From positions 1,178,001-1,242,000 of the forward strand of contig NZ_CP108393.1 in the NCBI RefSeq assembly GCF_035961655.1: DNA of 64,000 nucleotides, given 5' to 3'. Origin of the DNA: Streptomyces sp. NBC_01317. Its GTDB lineage: Bacteria; Actinomycetota; Actinomycetes; Streptomycetales; Streptomycetaceae. Position 1 is the first letter of the stretch. Each line of letters starts with the position of its first letter. Positions 7,970 through 54,617 of the stretch are shown here, one piece after another. Position numbers and translations under genes: made by a program. Below the pieces are notes generated by a model, which made no database searches, had not been told where the DNA came from, and saw nothing but the letters and a program-made list of their open reading frames with translations.

Positions 7970-8911
7970 ATGGGGGCAGGGCACGACCACGGCCACACAC
8001 ACGGAGGGCCACCGCCGACCGGGACGGCCGCGGCCGCGTACCAGGGAAGGCTGCGGATCGCCCTCGGCATCACGCTGTCCGTGATGGTCGTGGAGATCAT
8101 CGGTGGCATCGCGGCCGACTCGCTCGCCCTGGTCGCCGACGCCGCGCACATGGCGACGGACGCGGTCGGCCTCGGCCTGGCGCTGCTGGCGATCCACTTC
8201 GCGGCCCGGCCCGCCGACACCAGCCGTACCTTCGGCTACGCGCGGGCCGAGATCCTCGCCGCGCTGGCCAACTGCCTCCTGCTGCTGGGGGTCGGCGGCT
8301 ATCTGCTGTACGAGGCGATCGAGCGGTTCATCGTGCCGCCGGACACGCGGGGCGGGCTGGCCATCGTCTTCGCGCTGATCGGCATGGCCGCCAACATGGT
8401 GTCCCTCTTCCTGCTGATGCGCGGGCAGAAGGAGAGCCTCAACGTGCGCGGGGCCTATCTGGAGGTGCTCGCCGACACGCTCGGCTCGTTCACCGTGCTC
8501 GTGTCGTCCGTGATCATCCTGACCACGGGGTGGCAGACGGCCGACCCGATCGCGGGCCTGCTGATCGGTCTGATGATCGTCCCGCGTACGGTGAAGCTCC
8601 TCAGAGAGACGCTCAACGTGCTGCTGGAGGCGGCGCCCAAGGATGTCGACATGGCGGAGGTACGGGCCCACATGCTCGCGCTGCCCGGGGTGGCCGACGT
8701 CCACGACCTGCACGTCTGGACGATCACCTCGGGCATGCCGGTGCTCTCCGCCCACGTGGTGGTGAACCAGGACGCGCTGGACTCGGTGGGGCACGAGAAG
8801 ATGCTGCACGACCTCCAGGGATGCCTCGGGACCCACTTCGACGTGGAGCACTGCACGTTCCAGCTGGAGCCCCGGGGACACGCCGAGCACGAGGCCAAAC
8901 TCTGCCACTGA
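7970..8911 (+). CDS. cation diffusion facilitator, Zn/Co/Cd-type exporter (CzcD/ZitB-like)
   Basis: The protein has 313 residues. The ATG at 7970 is preferred to upstream codons because GGGAGG precedes it by 7 bases. A His-rich cytoplasmic N-terminus (GHDHGHTHG) is followed by six membrane segments and a soluble C-terminal domain ending in a His-rich tail. The metal-transport site appears as HMATD in the second segment and DTLGS in the fifth, the HxxxD plus D/N pattern of CDF proteins. It would exchange cytoplasmic divalent metal for protons. It stands alone between galE and idi, with no adjacent metal-sensor gene. Confidence 0.92.
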   Translation: MGAGHDHGHTHGGPPPTGTAAAAYQGRLRIALGITLSVMVVEIIGGIAADSLALVADAAHMATDAVGLGLALLAIHFAARPADTSRTFGYARAEILAALANCLLLLGVGGYLLYEAIERFIVPPDTRGGLAIVFALIGMAANMVSLFLLMRGQKESLNVRGAYLEVLADTLGSFTVLVSSVIILTTGWQTADPIAGLLIGLMIVPRTVKLLRETLNVLLEAAPKDVDMAEVRAHMLALPGVADVHDLHVWTITSGMPVLSAHVVVNQDALDSVGHEKMLHDLQGCLGTHFDVEHCTFQLEPRGHAEHEAKLCH

Positions 8912-46450: not shown

Positions 46451-46606
46451 CCCGGCCGGTGCCGAGACCGGTACGTGGGCGGCGCCCCCGCACGAAAGAG
46501 TGAATCGTTCCCCGGACACCCCATGTTCGGCTGCCGGAGGCAGCACTGTGCAGGGGCGGGCGACCAGCTCCGCACCCGCCGCACCGGCACAGGGGAAGGG
46601 GTGGGA

Positions 46607-48655
46607 GTGGCACACACCAAGGGGCGGCTCCCGGTCTCGCTGCGGGACCGGGCGCGCTACCGGTTCGACCGCACGCTGGCCCGCAGCACCGGCACACTGA
46701 TGGGCTGGCTGATACTCACCTGCCTGGCCGTCGTCGTGCCGGTGAGCGTCCTGCTGGTGTGGACGGACCCCGATTCGCCGCACTCGTTGTCGGGCCGCCT
46801 GACGGCGGCGTGGCGGACCAGCGCGGAGACGCTGCGGCTGGGCGCGATCTCCGGAACGCCGCTGCGCATGGTCCTGTCGGCGCTGCTCGGACTGGTCGCC
46901 CTGCTGTGCGTGTCGACCCTGATCGGAGTGATCACCAACAGCCTGGCCGAACGGATGGCGGAGTTGAGCCGCGGGCGGTCGACGGTTCTGGAGCACGGCC
47001 ATGTGCTGGTGCTCGGCTGGTCCGACCAGGTGACCACGGTGGTAGGGGAGTTGGTCTCGGCGCAGGCCCCGCGCCGGTCCCGGGCCATCGTCCTGCTCGC
47101 CGACCGGGACAAGACCGGGATGGAGCAGGCACTGGCCGCCCGGGCCGGCGGCGCCCGGCTCATCTGCCGCAGCGGTCCGCCGAGCGACCCCGCCGTACTG
47201 GCGCTGGTCAGCCCGCGGACGGCGAGCACCGTGCTGGTGCTGCCCCCGGGCGGGCCGGCGTCCGACCCCGAGGTGCTGCGGGTCCTGCTCGCGCTGCGTG
47301 CGGTCGCCGGCGAGGGGCCGGGCGGCCCACCGGTGCTGGCGGCGGTACGGGACGACCGCTACCGCGCGTCGGCCCGGCTGGCCGCCGGGCCACGTGCCAC
47401 GATCCTGGAGACGGACGCGGTCACGGCCCGGCTCGTCGCGCAGTGTGTCGGCCGCCCCGGCCTCTCCCTCGTCCTGCGCGACCTCCTCGACTTCGCCGGT
47501 GACGAGTTCCACCTCACCGACGCCACCGCGTTCTCCGGCGCTCCTTTCGGTACGGCCCTGCTGGGCCATGCCGACTCCTGCGTGATCGGGCTGTTGACCC
47601 CGCAGGGCCGGACCCTGCTGAACCCGCCCGCCGACACCACGGTCACACCGGGGACCCGGCTGATCGTCCTGGCCCGCGACGAGGCCGGCACACGCCCGGA
47701 GGACTGCCGGCACCTCGTCGACACGTCGGTGATCGCCGGGGACCGGCCACCACCGGAGCATCCCGCGCACCTGCTGATGCTCGGCTGGAACCGCCGGGCT
47801 CCCCTGGTCGTGGAACAGCTCCGGCGCACGGCCCGGCCCGGTTCCGTCCTGGACATCGTGACGGACCGGTCCCTGCCTGGGCCACGGGAGCCGGAGGCGG
47901 TCGCGGCGACGGCTGCGGAGGCGGAGGCAGCGCAGGACGTGGACCGGCTGGCCGTTCGGTCCCGGACCGCCACCCTGTCGCGGCCCGAGACCCTGCTCGG
48001 GCTCGACCTCGCCCCGTACGACGGTCTGGTGGTCCTCGGCCCCGATCCCGGCGACGGGCCGGACCGGCCCGACGACTGGACGCTGGTCGCCCTGCTGGCG
48101 CTGCGGCTGCTGGAGGAACGCGCCGGAGGCCGGGAGTTACGGGTCGTCAGCGAGCTCACCGACGACCGCAACCGCCCCCTCGCACCCGTCAACCCCGGCT
48201 CCGACGTCATCGTCAGCGGCGAACTGACCGGACTGCTCATGGCGCAGATCGCGCAGAACCATCATCTGGCCCCGGTGTTCGACGAGTTGTTCTCCGCGGA
48301 GGGCAGCCGGCTCTGTCTGCGTGCGGCCGGGACGTACGTCCGCGCGGGGTGCGAGGCGACCTTCGCCACGGTCGTGGCCGCCGCCCGCGACCGCGGCGAA
48401 TGCGCCATCGGCTACCGCCGTCACGACCGGCGGATGTCGGCGCCCGACTACGGGGTCCGGCTGAACCCGCCCAAGGGGGAACGGCGTGAGTGGAGTACCG
48501 GGGACCACGTGGTGGTCGTCACGACCGACCCGACCGTGCCCGGCCGGGCGGCTGGGACCGTCCGGGCCCCCGCGGCCGGGACCGCCGGGGAGGACGGGGA
48601 GGCCGGGGAAGGACGTCCGCCGGAGAGGGCCCGCCCCGAACCCGGGATCCGCTGA
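46607..48655 (+). CDS. CASTOR/POLLUX-related putative ion channel
   Basis: The protein has 682 residues. GTG 46607 is preferred (GGAAGGGG upstream); GTG 46601 is possible. Two membrane segments lie near the N-terminus (WLILTCLAVVVPVSVLLVW and LRMVLSALLGLVALLCVSTL), separated by a pore-like loop. Two RCK-like nucleotide-binding domains follow (HVLVLGWSDQVTTVVGELV near 130, LLMLGWNRRAPLVVEQL near 390). This is the layout of plant CASTOR/POLLUX and bacterial relatives. It probably carries monovalent or divalent cations under ligand control. The C-terminal 35 residues are disordered Gly/Glu/Pro. Confidence 0.88.
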   Translation: MAHTKGRLPVSLRDRARYRFDRTLARSTGTLMGWLILTCLAVVVPVSVLLVWTDPDSPHSLSGRLTAAWRTSAETLRLGAISGTPLRMVLSALLGLVALLCVSTLIGVITNSLAERMAELSRGRSTVLEHGHVLVLGWSDQVTTVVGELVSAQAPRRSRAIVLLADRDKTGMEQALAARAGGARLICRSGPPSDPAVLALVSPRTASTVLVLPPGGPASDPEVLRVLLALRAVAGEGPGGPPVLAAVRDDRYRASARLAAGPRATILETDAVTARLVAQCVGRPGLSLVLRDLLDFAGDEFHLTDATAFSGAPFGTALLGHADSCVIGLLTPQGRTLLNPPADTTVTPGTRLIVLARDEAGTRPEDCRHLVDTSVIAGDRPPPEHPAHLLMLGWNRRAPLVVEQLRRTARPGSVLDIVTDRSLPGPREPEAVAATAAEAEAAQDVDRLAVRSRTATLSRPETLLGLDLAPYDGLVVLGPDPGDGPDRPDDWTLVALLALRLLEERAGGRELRVVSELTDDRNRPLAPVNPGSDVIVSGELTGLLMAQIAQNHHLAPVFDELFSAEGSRLCLRAAGTYVRAGCEATFATVVAAARDRGECAIGYRRHDRRMSAPDYGVRLNPPKGERREWSTGDHVVVVTTDPTVPGRAAGTVRAPAAGTAGEDGEAGEGRPPERARPEPGIR

Positions 48656-48713: not shown

Positions 48714-49712
48714 TCAGTGGCCCGTGTGATCCCCGTCCGCCGGGGTTCCGGGGTGGTGGGGCTCGTAGCCCGGGACGGTGCCGTCCGGTTTCGCCACCAG
48801 GAACAGTCCGGCCATGCCCATGTCCGAGTGGCTCTGGACGTGGCAGTGGTACATCCACGCGCCCGCGCCGACGTGTTCGCCCGCGATGATCTGGAAGCCG
48901 AACGAGTCCGCCGGCCCTGTGATCTTGTTGTCGATCACACGGCTGGGGTCGTCGGGGCCGGTGAGCAGGCCCGTCCTGTTGTCCGCCCAGCGGTGACCGT
49001 GGATGTGGAACGTGTGGTAGTACTCGCCGTGCGTGATCATGATGACCTCGACCCGGTCCCCCACCGTGGCCTCGAAGTCGGGCGTGGCGGCGCCGGTCTT
49101 GTTGTTGATCGTCATGTCGTTGAAGACGATGGTGAACTGCTTGTCGGGCAGGATGTCACCCTTCCGGCGCACGACGACGGGGCCGTAGAGCCCCTTGCGG
49201 ATCCCGCCGGTGCCGTGGTCCGTGCCCACCACGTGGTCGTGGTAGTGCCAGTAGCCCGCGCTGCCCGGCCGCCAGGTGCCGTCGGCGCGCTTGCCCGGTG
49301 CGTGGGTGCGCCAGGTGTACGTGCGGGTCGCGCCGGGCTCCACGTGGCTCCGGTTCATCCGGGTGCCGTCGCTGGCGATGTCGTAGTCCACGCCGTGCAC
49401 ATGGAGGCTGGCCGCCACGTCCGTCGTGTTCTCGAACTCGATGTGAAGGGTGTCGCCCTCGGTCAGCTCGATCAGCGGACCCGGGACGGTCGCCGCGCCC
49501 TTCTCGAAACCGTAGCCCAGCTGACCGTCCGCCAGCTTCTCGGCGTACAGCTTGAGATGGCGCACCTGGCCCCCGGCGGGCGCGGTGGGGGGTGGAGCCT
49601 CCGCCGAACTCGCGGCGGGCGCGGACGCCACCGACAACGAGGCCGCTCCGGTGGCGGCGACCGCACCGCCCGCCAACAGGCGCCGGCTGAAGCTCCTTCT
49701 GTCCATGGCCAT
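48714..49712 (-). CDS. Tat-exported two-domain small laccase (multicopper oxidase)
   Basis: The protein has 332 residues. ATG 49712 has GGGGAG six bases upstream; [18 protein letters not shown] is a twin-arginine signal. Copper sites are all present: [17 protein letters not shown] and [12 protein letters not shown], giving a type 1 Cys-His-Met site and the trinuclear cluster formed between trimer subunits. It oxidises phenols or protein donors and reduces oxygen to water outside the cell. It diverges from the ThuA-PQQ/cupredoxin pair, which could supply its electrons. Confidence 0.95.
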
Positions 49713-49840
49713 ATCGAACTCCCCTGTGCCGTAAGGAGATGGACGGGGCGCAGGAGTCCCCGGGGACGGCCACACGGTAGAGCAGTGATCTTCGTTTATC
49801 CACACTCAGGACAAAGTTGGTGGGATTCCGTCCATAGCTA

Positions 49841-49869
49841 TTGGCTGACCGCCGAAAGACGTCTAGCTT
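49841..49869 (+). promoter_or_regulatory. promoter of the ThuA-PQQ/cupredoxin operon
   Basis: TTGGCT and TAGCTT are 17 bases apart, 39 bases before ATG 49909. Two near-identical segments (CAAAGTTGG around 49812 and 49890) flank it and might be regulatory direct repeats. Confidence 0.5.
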
Positions 49870-49908
49870 CAAGCGCTGTTGCTGTGACCAAAGTTGGGTG
49901 GGTGAACA

Positions 49909-52389
49909 ATGCAGCGCGCACCACATCACCGGTCAAGATCCAGGCGCGGGGCGGCCGCGTTCCTGGTCGCCGGCACCATGGCGGCATCCCTGCTGGGCGG
50001 CACCGCCGCCACGGCGAGACCGTTCCCTGAGCCGCCACCGACCGCCTTGGCCCTTCCGTCGCCGCCGGGCGGCCAGAACGTCAAGGTCCTCGTGTTCCAC
50101 GCCTCGGCCACCGAGGAGTCACCGCTCGTCAACGCCGGGATCGAGGCCATCGAGGCGATCGGCCTCGCGGGACCGGCGGCCGGGCGCTTCAAGACCGAGG
50201 CCACGGACGACGGTTCGGTCTTCACCAACGAGAAGAAGCTCGGCAAGTACAACGCCGTCGTCTTCCTCACCGGCGGCGGCGACGTGCTCGATCCGGAGCA
50301 GGAGGCCGGGCTGGAGTCGTACGTGGAGGCCGGCGGCGGCTTCCTCGGCATCCATGACGCGGCCCGTACGGAACCGTACTCCGACTGGTTCACCGGTCTG
50401 ATCGGCGCGCGGCCCGCGGCCACCAGCCCGGCCACCGTCCAGCGCGCGACCGTCGAGGTCGCCGACCGGGTGAATCCGGCCACGAAGAACCTCCCCGTGG
50501 AGTGGAAGCGGCCCGACAAGTGGATCAACTGGGCGGCCAACCCGACCGGCAAGGTGCACACCGTCGCCAAGGTCAGGGAGAGCAGCTACCGGCCGGGGGC
50601 GGGCGCCAACGGCGTCGACCACCCGGTCTCCTGGTGCCGTGACTACGACGGCGGCCGGTCCTTCTACACCGGGATGGGCGGTACGGCGGAGTCGTACGCC
50701 GAGACCGACTTCCGCGAGCACCTGCGGGGCGCCCTCCAGTGGACCACGCGCCTCTCGCGCGCCGACTGCAAGGCGACCATCGACGCCAACTACACGGCGG
50801 CGAAGGTGACCCAGCCCAACCAGGCGGGCCAGCAGGACCAGATCGGCGAGCCGCACGGCCTGGTCGTGGCACCCGACGGACGGGTGCTGTACATCGGCCG
50901 CGGCGGCGGGGCGAACGGTGCTCCCGTCGTCACCGACTGGAACAACCCGGAGATGGGCAAGGGCCTCGGCCAGGTCCACATCTACGACCCCGTGACCAAG
51001 AAGGTCACGCTCGCGGGCGCCCTGACCGTCTTCGGCAACAAGGGCGGCGGCGACGAACTCACCAAGGTCGAGGAGGGGTTGCTCGGCATCGAGCTGGACC
51101 CCGCCTTCGCGGCCAACGGCTGGGTGTACCTGCACTACACCCCGCACTCCGGGCTCGACCGTGACAAGCGGATCGCCGAACGGCGCGTCTCGCGCTTCAC
51201 GCTGGACCCGGTGACGAACAAGCTGGACCTGGCATCCGAGAAGGTCCTGCTCAAGTGGCCCGTACAGGTCAACAGCTGCTGCCACGCCGGTGGCGGGATG
51301 GCCTGGGACTCGAAGGGCAACCTCTACATCGCGACCGGCGACAACAACTCGTCCGGTTTCAGCGACGGTTACTCGGGCAACAACCCGCAGCCCAACTACA
51401 AGGGCCTGTCCTTCGCGGACGCCCGCAGGACCGCGGGCAACACGAACAACCTCAACGGCAAGATCCTGCGCATCCACCCGCGGCCCGACGGCACGTACAC
51501 CCTGCCGGCCGGGAACCTCTTCACGGGTGAGGAGCAGGACGAGGGCGGCGACAAGACCCGCGGCGAGATCTATGTGATGGGCGTGCGCAACCCGGCGCGC
51601 ATCTCGGTCGACCAGAAGACCGACATCCTGTACGCGGGCTGGGTCGGCCCCGACGCGGGCGCCCCGAGCACGACCTGGGGTCCGGCGAAGTACGACACGT
51701 TCGCGGCGATCACCAAGGCGGGCAACCACGGCTGGCCGTTCTGCATGGGCAACAAGCAGCCGTACCGGGACCGCAACCTCCCCGACCCGACGAAGCCGCT
51801 GGGCTGGTACAACTGCGACGCCCCGAAGAACGAGTCCCCCAACAACGACGGCCTGGTGAACCTGCCTCCCGTCACGGGCAACACCATCTGGTACTCCCCG
51901 CAGGGCGGCGGCCCCGACTTCCCCCGGGACGCCAACGGCGTACCCAGCTACAAGGCCGAGGAAGGCACCTTCCTGCTGCCGTGGCTCAAGGGCGGCGGCC
52001 AGGCCACCATGGACGGCCCGGTGTACCGCTACAACGCGGCGACCGCGACGGCCGACGCGTGGCCGGAGTACTGGGACGGCAAGTGGTTCGTCGGTGACTT
52101 CTACGACGCCGACAACCCGCGCCACGCGGTGCTGACCGATCCCAAGACGGTCGGCAAGGGCGGACTGCCCGTCACCGCCGAGTCGTTGAAGAAGATCATC
52201 CCGGTCGGCAACGGCGGCATCCGCAACCTCATGGACTGGAAGTTCGCGCCGGACGGCTCGCTCTACGTCCTGGACTACGGGCGCGGCTTCTTCACCTCCG
52301 ACTCCCAGTCCGCGCTGTGGCGTGTGACGTACAAGGGCGGCGAGGCGACGCCCGCCGCCGCGGATCTGGCCAGGAAGGCGACTCAGTGA
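49909..52389 (+). CDS. secreted ThuA-domain / PQQ-dependent sugar dehydrogenase fusion
   Basis: The protein has 826 residues. A signal peptide (about 1-37) is followed by a ThuA domain (about 55-280: KVLVFHASATEESPLVNAGIEAIEAI, VVFLTGGGDVL, GGGFLGIHDA). A six-bladed PQQ-dependent glucose dehydrogenase-like propeller (about 310-810) follows: GLVVAPDGRVLYIGRGG, EEGLLGIELDPAF, HAGGGMAWDSKGNLYIATGDN, LNGKILRIHPRPDG, MGVRNPARISVD. ThuA-type domains act in 3-keto-trehalose metabolism; the propeller would oxidise sugar hydroxyls with PQQ and calcium. Its stop overlaps the next gene's GTG (GTGA), so the cupredoxin fusion is made with it. Confidence 0.9.
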   Translation: MQRAPHHRSRSRRGAAAFLVAGTMAASLLGGTAATARPFPEPPPTALALPSPPGGQNVKVLVFHASATEESPLVNAGIEAIEAIGLAGPAAGRFKTEATDDGSVFTNEKKLGKYNAVVFLTGGGDVLDPEQEAGLESYVEAGGGFLGIHDAARTEPYSDWFTGLIGARPAATSPATVQRATVEVADRVNPATKNLPVEWKRPDKWINWAANPTGKVHTVAKVRESSYRPGAGANGVDHPVSWCRDYDGGRSFYTGMGGTAESYAETDFREHLRGALQWTTRLSRADCKATIDANYTAAKVTQPNQAGQQDQIGEPHGLVVAPDGRVLYIGRGGGANGAPVVTDWNNPEMGKGLGQVHIYDPVTKKVTLAGALTVFGNKGGGDELTKVEEGLLGIELDPAFAANGWVYLHYTPHSGLDRDKRIAERRVSRFTLDPVTNKLDLASEKVLLKWPVQVNSCCHAGGGMAWDSKGNLYIATGDNNSSGFSDGYSGNNPQPNYKGLSFADARRTAGNTNNLNGKILRIHPRPDGTYTLPAGNLFTGEEQDEGGDKTRGEIYVMGVRNPARISVDQKTDILYAGWVGPDAGAPSTTWGPAKYDTFAAITKAGNHGWPFCMGNKQPYRDRNLPDPTKPLGWYNCDAPKNESPNNDGLVNLPPVTGNTIWYSPQGGGPDFPRDANGVPSYKAEEGTFLLPWLKGGGQATMDGPVYRYNAATATADAWPEYWDGKWFVGDFYDADNPRHAVLTDPKTVGKGGLPVTAESLKKIIPVGNGGIRNLMDWKFAPDGSLYVLDYGRGFFTSDSQSALWRVTYKGGEATPAAADLARKATQ

Positions 52390-54617
52390 GACCCCGATCA
52401 GTGAGACACCGACCTCTACGCCTGTGGACGGCCCTCCTGGGCGCGTTGCTGATGGTGCTGGGGCTGACGTCGACGGCCGCCTACGGGCGGACCGGCGACC
52501 GTACGGCCGACAGCACGGCGGCCGCCCAGGTTCTCAACTGGACGACGAGCGGCCGCACCGACCGGTACGTCACCTTCCCGACCACCGCGGTGGCGGGGGC
52601 GACGACCATCGTCTTCGAGAACAGTGTGGCCACCGGCAACGACATCGGGATGCCGCACACGCTGACCTTCGACGTGTCGGACCCCGAGTACAACAACGAC
52701 GTACCGCTCAACATCCTGGCCAATCCGAGTGACGACAACGGCGGCAAGTACTCCGTCGAGGTCAATCTCACCCCGGGCCGCTACCGCTTCTTCTGCACCA
52801 TCCCGGGCCACGGCCAGATGCAGGGCATCCTGACCGTGACCGAGGCGGGCGGCGGCGACGACACCACTCCGCCCGTCGTCAAGGCCACCGTGGACGGGGA
52901 GGGCAACGACCAGGGCGAGTACGTGGGTTCGGCCGTGGTGGGTCTGTCGGCCACCGACGAGGGATCCGGCGTGGCGTCGATCGAGTACCGGACCGGAGTC
53001 GGCGGCACCTGGCAGCCGTACACCGTTCCGCTGGTGTTCGACCAGGTCGGCCAGCACGATGTCGCCTACCGCGCCACCGACCAGGCGGGAAACGTGTCGC
53101 CGGAGGCGGGCGTGTCCTTCTGGGTGGTGGCGCGGCCCGGCGGTGACTCCACCGCGCCGGAGACCTCGGCGACGGTGAGCGGCGACAAGGACCCGGCGGG
53201 CAACTACCTGACGATGGCCACGGTCACCGTCACCGCCTCGGACACCGGTTCGGGCGTCAACACCATCGAGTACGCCCTCGGGGCGGGCGCGGCGTGGCAG
53301 CCGTACACCGGGCCGGTGATGGTCCATCAGGTCGGCGCGCACACCGTCCGCTACAGGGCGACCGACAAGGCGGGGAACGTGACGGCCGAGAAGTCCGTCG
53401 CCTTCACCGTCGTGGCGCCGCCCGCGCAGGACACGACGGCGCCGGTGACCACGGCGGCCGTCAGCGGCACCCTGAACTCCGGCGGTGCCTACGTCACCAG
53501 CGCCAAGGTCACCCTGTCGGCGACCGACGCCGGCGGGTCCGGGGTGGACAGGACCGAGTACTCGCTGGACGGCGGTCCGTACCTCGCGTACACCACCCCC
53601 GTCATCGTCGACGCGCTCGGTTACCACACGCTCGCGCACCGGGCGACGGACAAGGCCGGCAACACGTCGGCGGCCAAGCAGGTGTCCTTCACCATCGCGC
53701 AGGGCGGTGGCGTCCCGGCGCCCAACTGCCCTGAGTTCGATGAGCGGTTGACGGTCATCGTGGGCGCGGTCGACACCGGTGTGCCGAACCGGCTCACCCG
53801 GAGCCGGTGCACGATCAACGAGCTGATCGAGGACGAGAAGGACTGGTCCTCGGCGGCGCTGTTCCTCAAGCACGTGGACGGCGTGCTCGACAAGCTGCTG
53901 GCCGACAACGTCATCGACCAGCGCGAGTTCAACAAGATCACCAAGGCGGCCAAGCAGTCGAAGATCGGCAAGCCCGGCCAGACCGAGGGCTACCGCGACC
54001 TCTTCGACGGTACGGCGGAGTCCCTGGCGCAGTGGGAGCAGGTCGGCGGCGGTAAGTTCGCGCTGTCCGGCGAAGGTGCCATCACCAGCAGCACGACGGT
54101 GAACGGCATGGGCATGCTGTGGTTCCCGGAGCGCAAGTACGGCGACTTCTCGCTCAAGCTCCAGTTCCGCGACGACGCCCCGGGCACGGGCAACGCCAAC
54201 GGCGGTGTGTTCGTGCGGTTCCCGAACGTCCACAACCACCCCGAGGAGTCCCGGCCCGAGTGGGTCGCCATCAACTACGGGCACGAGATGCAGATCCTCG
54301 ACAACCCCGTCGGCGACATGTACAAGACCGGCTCGGTGTACGGCTTCGACCGGGTGGGCCTGGGCGGCGCGGGGGTCACCCCGAAGGGCAGCTGGAACGA
54401 CTACGAGATCCGCGCGGAGGGCCAGCACTTCACGATCCTGCGCAACGGTGTGGTGATCAACGAGTTCGACAACGTCGGCGGACAGGCCTTCACACCGCCG
54501 CGCGCCGGGGACCCGGGGACGGACGGCCGGCGGTACGCCACCGGTTACGTCGGCCTCCAGGTGCACAGCACGACGGACGTGATCTCGTACCGCAACATCC
54601 GTATCAAGGAGCTGTAG
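52386..54617 (+). CDS. secreted cupredoxin / Ig-like repeats / DUF1080 (3-keto-disaccharide hydrolase) fusion
   Basis: The protein has 743 residues, starting at the coupled GTG. Signal peptide about 1-35; then a plastocyanin-type cupredoxin (about 45-150) with a complete type 1 copper set: His in MPHTLTFDV, Cys and His in FFCTIPGH, Met in GHGQM. Three OmpL47/Ig-like repeats of about 90 residues follow (each begins D-T/S-T-x-P and ends with GxHxVxYRATDxAGN). After a helical linker comes a DUF1080 jelly-roll (about 545-743; YRDLFDGTAESLAQWEQVGGGKF to DVISYRNIRIKEL), a domain now linked to 3-keto-glycoside hydrolysis. It could accept electrons from the PQQ enzyme and process its keto-sugar product. 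Confidence 0.88.
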   Translation: MRPRSVRHRPLRLWTALLGALLMVLGLTSTAAYGRTGDRTADSTAAAQVLNWTTSGRTDRYVTFPTTAVAGATTIVFENSVATGNDIGMPHTLTFDVSDPEYNNDVPLNILANPSDDNGGKYSVEVNLTPGRYRFFCTIPGHGQMQGILTVTEAGGGDDTTPPVVKATVDGEGNDQGEYVGSAVVGLSATDEGSGVASIEYRTGVGGTWQPYTVPLVFDQVGQHDVAYRATDQAGNVSPEAGVSFWVVARPGGDSTAPETSATVSGDKDPAGNYLTMATVTVTASDTGSGVNTIEYALGAGAAWQPYTGPVMVHQVGAHTVRYRATDKAGNVTAEKSVAFTVVAPPAQDTTAPVTTAAVSGTLNSGGAYVTSAKVTLSATDAGGSGVDRTEYSLDGGPYLAYTTPVIVDALGYHTLAHRATDKAGNTSAAKQVSFTIAQGGGVPAPNCPEFDERLTVIVGAVDTGVPNRLTRSRCTINELIEDEKDWSSAALFLKHVDGVLDKLLADNVIDQREFNKITKAAKQSKIGKPGQTEGYRDLFDGTAESLAQWEQVGGGKFALSGEGAITSSTTVNGMGMLWFPERKYGDFSLKLQFRDDAPGTGNANGGVFVRFPNVHNHPEESRPEWVAINYGHEMQILDNPVGDMYKTGSVYGFDRVGLGGAGVTPKGSWNDYEIRAEGQHFTILRNGVVINEFDNVGGQAFTPPRAGDPGTDGRRYATGYVGLQVHSTTDVISYRNIRIKEL

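Follow-up and report, generated by a model that had tools for sequence, protein, structure and literature searches.

The laccase gene of this locus and the two genes divergent from it are a genuine conserved module, which provides candidate partners for SLAC-type laccases. Several families of actinobacteria keep the same parts linked, although the gene order differs, and the set therefore probably forms one extracellular redox system. An electron chain from sugar to oxygen is a plausible function, which we infer from the gene set.

Within the window, the 64,000-nucleotide stretch of DNA that was analysed, an open reading frame check confirmed the three frames called in a preliminary description, with a third-position G+C of 0.91, 0.95 and 0.93 for genes 1, 2 and 3, respectively. 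Gene 1 (48714..49712, minus strand) encodes a SLAC-type two-domain (type B) laccase with a Tat-like signal. Gene 2 (49909..52389, plus strand) encodes an 826-residue protein, predicted from its N-terminus to be secreted, that joins a ThuA domain to a propeller of the six-bladed PQQ-dehydrogenase family (GSDH). Gene 3 (52386..54617, plus strand) encodes a 743-residue protein consisting of a cupredoxin, three Ig-like repeats, a helical-looking region and a DUF1080 domain. The laccase gene diverges from the other two, which are translationally coupled: the most likely start of gene 3, GTG 52386, overlaps the stop codon of gene 2 (TGA 52387–52389). A start at 52317 is disfavoured; the matching database protein has 743 amino acids. 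The preliminary description was right about this layout, and also about its laccase, ThuA, PQQ-dehydrogenase-family, cupredoxin, Ig and DUF1080 domains.

The gene 1 product matches Pfam Cu-oxidase_2 and Cu-oxidase_3, and its best PDB match is entry 3cg8 (query residues 34–357, E = 2.7e-179), the SLAC of S. coelicolor (PMC9692349). Its N-terminus appears Tat-like by eye, and ATG 49712, with GGGGAG upstream, is the likely start and is favoured over GTG 49805. All copper ligands, that is the T1 ligands of domain 2 and the histidines of the trinuclear site, are present in the window sequence, in line with the earlier claim of a laccase with all copper motifs. The ligand columns are kept in 95–101 of 101 aligned laccase sequences. 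On these grounds the protein belongs to the SLAC-type two-domain laccases, and trimer formation, O2 reduction and phenol oxidation are predicted. It shares its family and all copper ligands with the Streptomyces laccases SLAC, EpoA, SilA and Ssl1, from which the enzyme itself is no different; the novelty lies in the partner genes linked to it. Since the early 2000s, work on the small laccases of Streptomyces has mainly treated them as biotechnology enzymes, and their cellular role is described as open (PMC13151041, PMC3527528, PMC7036934). The roles of two-domain oxidases are likewise called poorly understood (PMC13151041), and most bacterial laccases that have been characterised are said to have no known function (PMC3527528).

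The ThuA domain of gene 2 (residues 59–279, 50083..50745; PF06283, E = 2e-59, 201.8 bits against a cut-off of 33.4) is followed by the GSDH-type propeller region (residues 291–826, 50779..52386; placed by Pfam and alignments), of which residues 384–621 match PF07995 (E = 4.8e-24, 85.7 bits against a cut-off of 25). The propeller also matches sGDH and Asd chains in a profile comparison. The catalytic histidine of the PQQ enzymes, His459, lies in an SCCHAGG motif directly behind Cys457 and Cys458, and it is kept together with Arg560, Asn561 and the Gly-Pro step in all 91 propeller sequences. The C-terminal RxR motif that binds PQQ in sGDH and Asd is missing from all 91. HMMER alignments with sGDH and E. 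coli Asd place it at Asn773-Leu-Met775, with Met775 in 91/91, while residue 772, one position earlier, is Arg in 46/91 and Lys in 5/91. Two Asd-like proteins of this genome carry GRLR near their C-termini as seen by eye, and MAFFT did not place GRLR in the RxR column. Compared with sGDH and Asd (PF07995), the ThuA-GSDH protein shares the profile match over most of the domain, the catalytic His and the Arg-Asn pair, and it differs in its ThuA fusion, in the Cys-Cys step before the His and in the missing RxR.

A link to PQQ synthesis was sought through the distribution of PqqE and was not found: of the 72 genomes that have ThuA-GSDH, 13 carry a PqqE over the cut-off, against 12 of the 49 that lack it, and this genome carries none over the cut-off. 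Synthesis by the host is not strictly defining, because non-makers such as E. coli take up PQQ from outside, and in AA12 enzymes the PQQ-binding residues vary within the six-bladed fold (both PMC6881789). Regarding the PQQ dehydrogenase of the preliminary description, the family and the His, Arg-Asn and Gly-Pro elements stand, while the RxR (0/91) and the lack of a PqqE over the cut-off in the genome speak against it. We know of no enzyme of the GSDH fold that forms a 3-keto-sugar; those known to us oxidise C1, not C3. The open-licence literature likewise yielded no example of a GSDH-fold enzyme that oxidises C3, and a published 3-keto-sugar former, LacABC, belongs to another family (PMC9007349). 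The proposed formation of 3-keto-sugars by the dehydrogenase is left without support.

The cupredoxin domain of gene 3 (52524..52847, plus strand) matches PF00127 only marginally (E = 1.3e-4, 22.8 bits against a cut-off of 21.2). Its type 1 ligands H, C, H and M are residues 90, 136, 141 and 144 of the 742-residue fragment starting at 52389 (the His90 codon is 52656–52658), and they are kept in 95 of 95 sequences, a set that includes the window and four duplicate loci. By sequence, this conservation outweighs the weak Pfam score. Three OmpL47/Ig-like repeats follow (52863..53697, approximate ends; three stretches of NF047446), then a domain that looks helical by eye (53718..53981), which in relatives is found next to DUF1080 or at protein ends. 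The C-terminal domain (53982..54614; PF06439, E = 1.7e-32, 113.4 bits against a cut-off of 26.8) belongs by its profile to the DUF1080 or 3-keto-disaccharide hydrolase family, and hydrolysis of 3-keto-glycosides is predicted. No single-chain fusion of cupredoxin and GSDH occurs among the best 120 listed relatives of each. The test is weak, because it covers these top relatives and because the precomputed Pfam annotation leaves out the cupredoxin of almost every protein that has it.

The divergent intergenic region (49713..49908) contains a block that is conserved in an alignment of 45 regions (44 loci and the window). The alignment suggests two candidate promoters: TGGATA (49797–49802) and TACCGT (49774–49779), separated by 17 nt, for the laccase (49774..49802, minus strand), and TTGGCT (49841–49846) and TAGCTT (49864–49869), with the same spacing of 17 nt, for the coupled pair (49841..49869, plus strand). 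The conserved sequence AACTTTGTCC (minus strand, 49809..49818) between them is a candidate shared operator. A generic promoter scan of the window's intergenic region gave no site over threshold, and the exact CebR operator string has no match in the 45 regions.

The preliminary description had raised the conservation of the neighbourhood across genomes, and the laccase and the pair do co-occur. Among 121 genomes of the same genus, 71 contain both SLAC and ThuA-GSDH, three SLAC only, one ThuA-GSDH only and 46 neither. The two genes are adjacent and divergent in 71/71, with a gap of 174–439 bases, and among the cupredoxin matches listed the cupredoxin is present in the same 72 genomes that have a ThuA-GSDH orthologue. 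At the class level (296 genomes, E below 1e-200) both are found in 41 genomes, SLAC only in one and ThuA-GSDH only in none. The single genome with ThuA-GSDH only (G073) probably reflects a contig end, as ThuA starts at 8392 on a contig of 8823 bases, and the missing partners in G120 are probably explained likewise. Remnants of laccase and DUF1080 abut end to end in G048, from which the whole set seems to have been lost in one deletion. Seven genomes had a SLAC match with a stop mark and were examined for laccase pseudogenes that would break this coupling: G099 has one premature stop (residue 272), G119 a broken copy (stop at alignment residue 51) in an assembly where gene 3 is broken as well, G266 a stop at the C-terminus, and the other four no stop within the aligned part.

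Four full arrangements of the set account for 46, 15, 13 and 10 of 103 loci, or 46, 13, 13 and 10 of 98 after removal of duplicates, and arrangements changed at least five times on the GSDH tree (58 rows) and at least four times on the SLAC tree (65 rows). In ten named genera and others, with exceptions, the genes remain linked even though they are reordered, reoriented or fused to different domains. Given these rearranged loci, we reject the idea that the gene order is an accident of one genus. Elsewhere DUF1080 is carried by the dehydrogenase protein; it switches protein yet remains within the set, and the modules stay together under different gene orders. Seven genes that flank the set in the window have no counterpart in any of the 38 loci with one of the other three full arrangements. 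In 14 loci that encode related ThuA-GSDH proteins but do not belong to the set, neither a SLAC nor a cupredoxin of this kind lies within 14 kb. The exceptions are six loci (four distinct records) with cupredoxin and SLAC but no ThuA-GSDH, and five (four distinct) with SLAC and neither partner. Four loci have tandem laccases in which the counted copy is short of a T1 ligand: Cys is replaced by Thr and His by Phe in L165 and L166, and His by Tyr in L171 and L190. A second copy is present in all four and is intact in L165.

Read as one secreted redox module, the set would pass electrons from a sugar through ThuA-GSDH and the cupredoxin to SLAC and O2. We infer its secretion, substrate, cofactor and electron steps, and rate this reading at slightly below an even chance. 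Acting extracellularly, the ThuA-GSDH protein would oxidise a sugar or the end of a glycan and hand electrons to the tethered cupredoxin at its type 1 copper; the laccase would accept them directly or via a small phenol or quinone mediator and reduce O2 to water. The Ig repeats, accompanied in relatives by F5/8-type C and PKD domains and further Ig repeats, may keep the parts near a polymer, and the oxidised sugar would be the target of DUF1080 and ThuA. To drive copper enzymes, the AA12 domain of CcPDH depends on the cytochrome domain joined to it (PMC5960967), and by analogy the cupredoxin may act as a tethered relay. Co-occurrence, linkage through rearrangement, the lack of SLAC and cupredoxin at the related loci outside the set, the differing outer neighbours, the joint loss in G048 and the kept cupredoxin ligands support the module. 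Against it count the RxR motif, absent in 91/91, the unlinked PqqE, the loci without ThuA-GSDH, the T1-defective laccase copies, the C1 rather than C3 oxidation known for GSDH-fold enzymes, and the T1 copper of type B enzymes, which is oriented towards a central tunnel (PMC13151041) that may hinder a protein donor such as a cupredoxin. The earlier interpretation is supported in part: the genes belong together and the type 1 site is complete, while PQQ dependence, 3-keto-sugar production by the dehydrogenase and direct transfer from cupredoxin to laccase are at present only conjectural. A wider proposition would make SLAC-type laccases the dedicated terminal oxidases in a secreted chain that runs from sugar to oxygen through a tethered blue-copper relay. 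Their natural donor would then be a protein, or a mediator that this protein reduces, and not lignin as such; we regard this as tentative and on balance doubtful.

The small substrates that such a tunnel would favour (PMC13151041) also suit an unlikely alternative, in which SLAC oxidises lignin phenols to radicals and quinones and the dehydrogenase, alone or via the cupredoxin, re-reduces them using sugars. This would prevent re-polymerisation or drive redox cycling, and the acceptor of the cupredoxin would not be SLAC. It agrees with the lower lignin release and lower respiration on straw of an S. ipomoeae silA (SLAC) mutant (PMC5675413), and with the observation that free PQQ, acting as a diphenol/quinone mediator, levelled the differences in how an AA12 enzyme couples to copper enzymes (PMC5960967), but it leaves unexplained why a full type 1 cupredoxin stays with SLAC where the dehydrogenase is missing (six loci, four distinct). 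Those same loci are what would be expected if cupredoxin and SLAC were the core, as redox partners or for copper supply, and ThuA-GSDH-DUF1080 a carbohydrate module. Its propeller would then be something other than a PQQ dehydrogenase, for instance a lyase, a binding domain or an enzyme that uses a different cofactor. The RxR missing in 91/91, the Cys-Cys step adjoining the catalytic His, the lack of a PqqE over the cut-off in this genome and the presence of Hedgehog-interacting protein, of the same fold family, among the PDB matches of the propeller point in this direction; yet the conservation of His, Arg-Asn and Gly-Pro in 91/91 and the variability of PQQ-binding residues within the fold that AA12 shows (PMC6881789) count against it, and we consider this arrangement rather unlikely. 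That the genes share only their regulation, for growth on plant debris, and otherwise function independently is improbable: the conserved divergent block would fit, but the set is kept together in arrangements of other orientations and DUF1080 is exchanged between the partner proteins.

Azurin and pseudoazurin are blue copper donors to copper nitrite reductases, which are trimeric two-domain copper enzymes. The combination of a blue copper protein with a two-domain copper enzyme is alike here, with a laccase as the acceptor and a transfer that is proposed from the genes. The pyranose dehydrogenase of Coprinopsis cinerea (AA12 with an AA8 cytochrome), which drives LPMOs, likewise combines an extracellular six-bladed dehydrogenase, a relay domain and a copper-enzyme acceptor (PMC5960967, PMC6881789). 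The proposed system differs in being bacterial; its relay would be a cupredoxin carried by another protein than the dehydrogenase, and its terminal enzyme a laccase. ThuA-GSDH appears to have the PQQ-binding residues only partly in common with it. In LacABC with DUF1080, the proposed Caulobacter 3'-ketolactose pathway, and in BT2157 a dehydrogenase is also paired with a secreted DUF1080 protein (PMC9007349). The LacABC dehydrogenase is of another family, and the available text of that source does not mention a laccase or cupredoxin (PMC9007349). No description of the present gene set was found in the open-licence literature, which is weak evidence of absence.

The linked cupredoxin and dehydrogenase-like protein name concrete partners for SLAC and make its cellular role directly testable in laboratory strains. 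If the proposed chain is real, it would be a natural counterpart of a glucose/O2 enzymatic fuel cell. The set is hidden by names in public annotation: the listed relatives appear as 'ThuA domain-containing', 'transcriptional regulator', 'OmpL47-type beta-barrel', 'family 16 glycoside hydrolase', 'glycosyl hydrolase' or 'DUF1080', and two among the best 120 cupredoxin relatives listed are named 'plastocyanin'.

The three genes singled out in the preliminary description fill 48714–54617 of the window, and this observation is borne out with corrections limited to the start sites of the first and third genes. The minus-strand gene (48714–49712) encodes a SLAC-type two-domain laccase. It is separated by 196 bases from the divergent ThuA-GSDH gene (49909–52389, plus strand), the TGA stop codon of which overlaps the GTG start of the cupredoxin-Ig3-helical-DUF1080 gene (52386–54617, plus strand). 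The window lies in an 8.07 Mb genome of one contig (G000), and the closest named proteins and loci are those of Streptomyces and Actinacidiphila; the genus is accordingly taken to be Streptomyces. A CASTOR/POLLUX-type ion channel protein (46475–48655) adjoins the laccase; within the flanks examined, this neighbour is absent next to the set from all 45 other loci of the arrangement.

The genes very probably form one functional set. The earlier proposal depended on the laccase travelling with the other two genes, and this is what is observed: among 121 genomes of the genus, SLAC (E-value of 1e-60 or better) is present in 74, ThuA-GSDH (1e-200 or better) in 72 and both in 71, where they are without exception adjacent and divergent, with gaps of 174–439 bases (median 230). 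Among the matches listed, the cupredoxin, whole or partial, is present in the same 72 genomes as ThuA-GSDH. Three genomes contain SLAC without ThuA-GSDH. In one (G048), remnants of laccase and of DUF1080 directly adjoin each other (L281:8291–9067), as though the rest of the divergon had been lost in a single deletion; in G058 and G116 other genes flank the laccase, and G116 retains the LigD genes found at the usual location of the set. In the sole genome with ThuA-GSDH only (G073) the contig stops just upstream of this gene. Across 296 genomes of the class (SLAC at 1e-40 or better, ThuA-GSDH at 1e-200 or better), SLAC is found in 42, 41 of which also have ThuA-GSDH, and ThuA-GSDH is never found without SLAC; the 42 include 23 from other genera, 22 of them with both genes. 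In the exception (G136) the laccase is present in three copies, two of which adjoin a cupredoxin gene. A looser ThuA-GSDH cut-off of 1e-100 adds eight class genomes with a relative of this protein and no SLAC; among the matches listed, nothing falls between the weakest set member (1.3e-231) and the next match (2.0e-139). Because genomes share ancestry, Fisher p-values for co-occurrence overstate the case, and rearrangements provide the stronger evidence for linkage.

We annotated 103 loci (98 distinct, five being duplicates): the window, 20 from surveyed genomes, chosen with a preference for exceptions and non-genus cases, 80 from named records (the best 80 of 580) and a further two. Four full arrangements account for 84 of them (82 of the 98 distinct loci). 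In 46 loci from Streptomyces and Actinacidiphila, including the window, the laccase is divergent from ThuA-GSDH and DUF1080 is carried by the cupredoxin protein. The laccase is also divergent in 15 loci (13 distinct) from Microbispora, Sphaerisporangium, Planotetraspora, Actinoallomurus and further families, with ThuA-GSDH fused to DUF1080 and followed by the cupredoxin. All genes run in the same direction in 13 loci from Nonomuraea, Streptosporangium, Microtetraspora and further families, and in ten from other Streptomyces and Peterkaempfera the cupredoxin is divergent from a unit made up of laccase and ThuA-GSDH-DUF1080. The other 19 comprise six second loci (four distinct; L168, L170, L175 and L195–L197, the named ones from Microbispora) that lack ThuA-GSDH and have the cupredoxin gene diverging from a tandem pair of SLAC genes, five (four distinct) with the laccase alone, three without DUF1080 (L231 and L237, cut by contig ends, and L182 from G037, which is not cut), three truncated at contig ends (L178, L181 and L194) and two retrieved for other purposes. 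Among the 80 named-record loci, ThuA-GSDH is encoded in 75 and the cupredoxin in 77. The six second loci suggest that no two parts are more closely tied than cupredoxin and SLAC. On quick trees, at least five arrangement changes are required for GSDH (58 rows) and at least four for SLAC (65 rows), while the parts remain together. Of the genes around the set in the window, seven were looked for in the flanks examined of the 38 loci with one of the other three arrangements, and none was found. Among the 46 loci, the two nearest laccase-side neighbours occur in five and one (including the window itself); on the opposite side, the two LigD genes are present in 34 and 32. The chromosomal place of the set is therefore kept partly in the genus and not beyond it.

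ThuA-GSDH belongs to a wider family, and G000 encodes nine GSDH proteins. SLAC and the set-type cupredoxin are absent within 14 kb at 14 examined loci, one in G000, that encode ThuA or GSDH relatives not belonging to the set. In the five of these relatives that were scanned, PKD and CBM6 domains are present, accompanied in some by GH43_C2, DUF1349 or DUF1080. In Nonomuraea pusilla (L198), a lone SLAC gene without the set adjoins a GH20 gene, and a ThuA-GSDH relative with 40% identity is located some 5 kb away; an additional relative also occurs no more than 10 kb from several full sets. These cases speak against a clean split between the set and the wider family. Of eight aligned ThuA-GSDH proteins, the five from the other arrangements have an insert in ThuA and a further domain before DUF1080, which in one scanned protein are F5/8 type C and PKD, and this domain content points to a polymer-bound carbohydrate as the likely target. 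Elsewhere in G000 (L273; G000:C1:230000–244000) another ThuA-DUF1080 protein lies beside a GSDH protein in a stretch without laccase or cupredoxin.

The type 1 copper (T1) domain described previously is confirmed, the His, Cys, His and Met ligands being conserved throughout the 95 cupredoxin sequences (91 once duplicates are removed). For the laccase, conservation of the individual ligand columns ranges from 95 to 101 of 101 sequences, with departures confined to tandem copies. In the copy adjoining ThuA-GSDH at L165:5707–6700 and L166:7728–8633 (family f28), the T1 Cys is replaced by Thr and the T1 His by Phe; three loci of Microbispora or its family (L171, L190 and L195, the last duplicated as L175) share a T1 His-to-Tyr change.

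The propeller fits a PQQ dehydrogenase in part. The His aligned with the catalytic His of sGDH, an Arg-Asn pair and a Gly-Pro step, which has a role in calcium binding, are kept in 91 of 91 propellers. A Cys-Cys directly before the catalytic His (propeller region 50779–52386 in the window) is present in every one of the 91, as well as in eight of nine relatives that are not part of the set, and is reminiscent of the vicinal disulfide known from PQQ alcohol dehydrogenases. However, the C-terminal RxR was not found in the propeller sequences, with caveats on the alignment at that column, and no PqqE passes the cut-off in G000. As PqqE does so in 25 of 121 genomes (13 of the 72 that have ThuA-GSDH and 12 of the other 49), most hosts would depend on an external source of PQQ. 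In Coprinopsis cinerea pyranose dehydrogenase, the catalytic His, an Arg and an Asn contact PQQ or its calcium (excerpt of PMC6881789), and this Arg and Asn are taken to be the counterpart of the Arg-Asn pair. PQQ is a possible cofactor of the propeller.

The simplest reading with a role for every part is an electron chain from sugar to O2, in which the propeller would oxidise a sugar, the tethered cupredoxin would relay single electrons, SLAC would reduce oxygen, and ThuA and DUF1080 would process the oxidised sugar. We give slightly less than an even chance to electrons passing from the dehydrogenase-like protein via the cupredoxin to SLAC and O2, directly or through a mediator, and consider it unlikely that the dehydrogenase makes a 3-keto sugar that DUF1080 then cleaves. 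Precedent for the relay step is found in the AA12 domain, which drives copper enzymes only with its attached cytochrome domain (excerpt of PMC5960967), and for the sugar processing in DUF1080 hydrolases, one cited as a 3-ketotrehalose hydrolase and another proposed for 3'-ketolactose (passages of PMC9007349).

In type B enzymes T1 sits at a tunnel (Cellvibrio enzyme; excerpt of PMC13151041), which by analogy would weigh against a protein-to-protein electron step, though a surface cavity suggested just above T1 of SLAC and its electron exchange with electrodes (passages of PMC9692349) temper this objection. Alternatively, SLAC could make phenol radicals or quinones that the dehydrogenase reduces back. 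On straw, loss of silA, the SLAC gene of S. ipomoeae, lowers respiration by 40% and reduces lignin release, and the mutant grows less well; no significant difference in growth is seen in liquid medium (excerpt of PMC5675413). The straw phenotype fits both the electron chain and the quinone cycle. The parts of the proposed chain are ordinary, and the novelty lies in their combination.

A conserved block is common to 45 intergenic regions, from the window and 44 other loci of its arrangement. It contains two sigma-70-like hexamer pairs, one per strand, that flank a conserved AACTTTGTCC; a generic promoter scan of the window's intergenic region reported no promoter. Within the block, GTTTATCCACA (49794–49804) resembles a DnaA box, which may be due to chance. 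A published silA primer of S. ipomoeae (excerpt of PMC5675413) differs from the block by two mismatches in L260, by at most five in nine of the 45 loci and by seven in the window. Because of this primer match, silA of S. ipomoeae may share the same upstream region.
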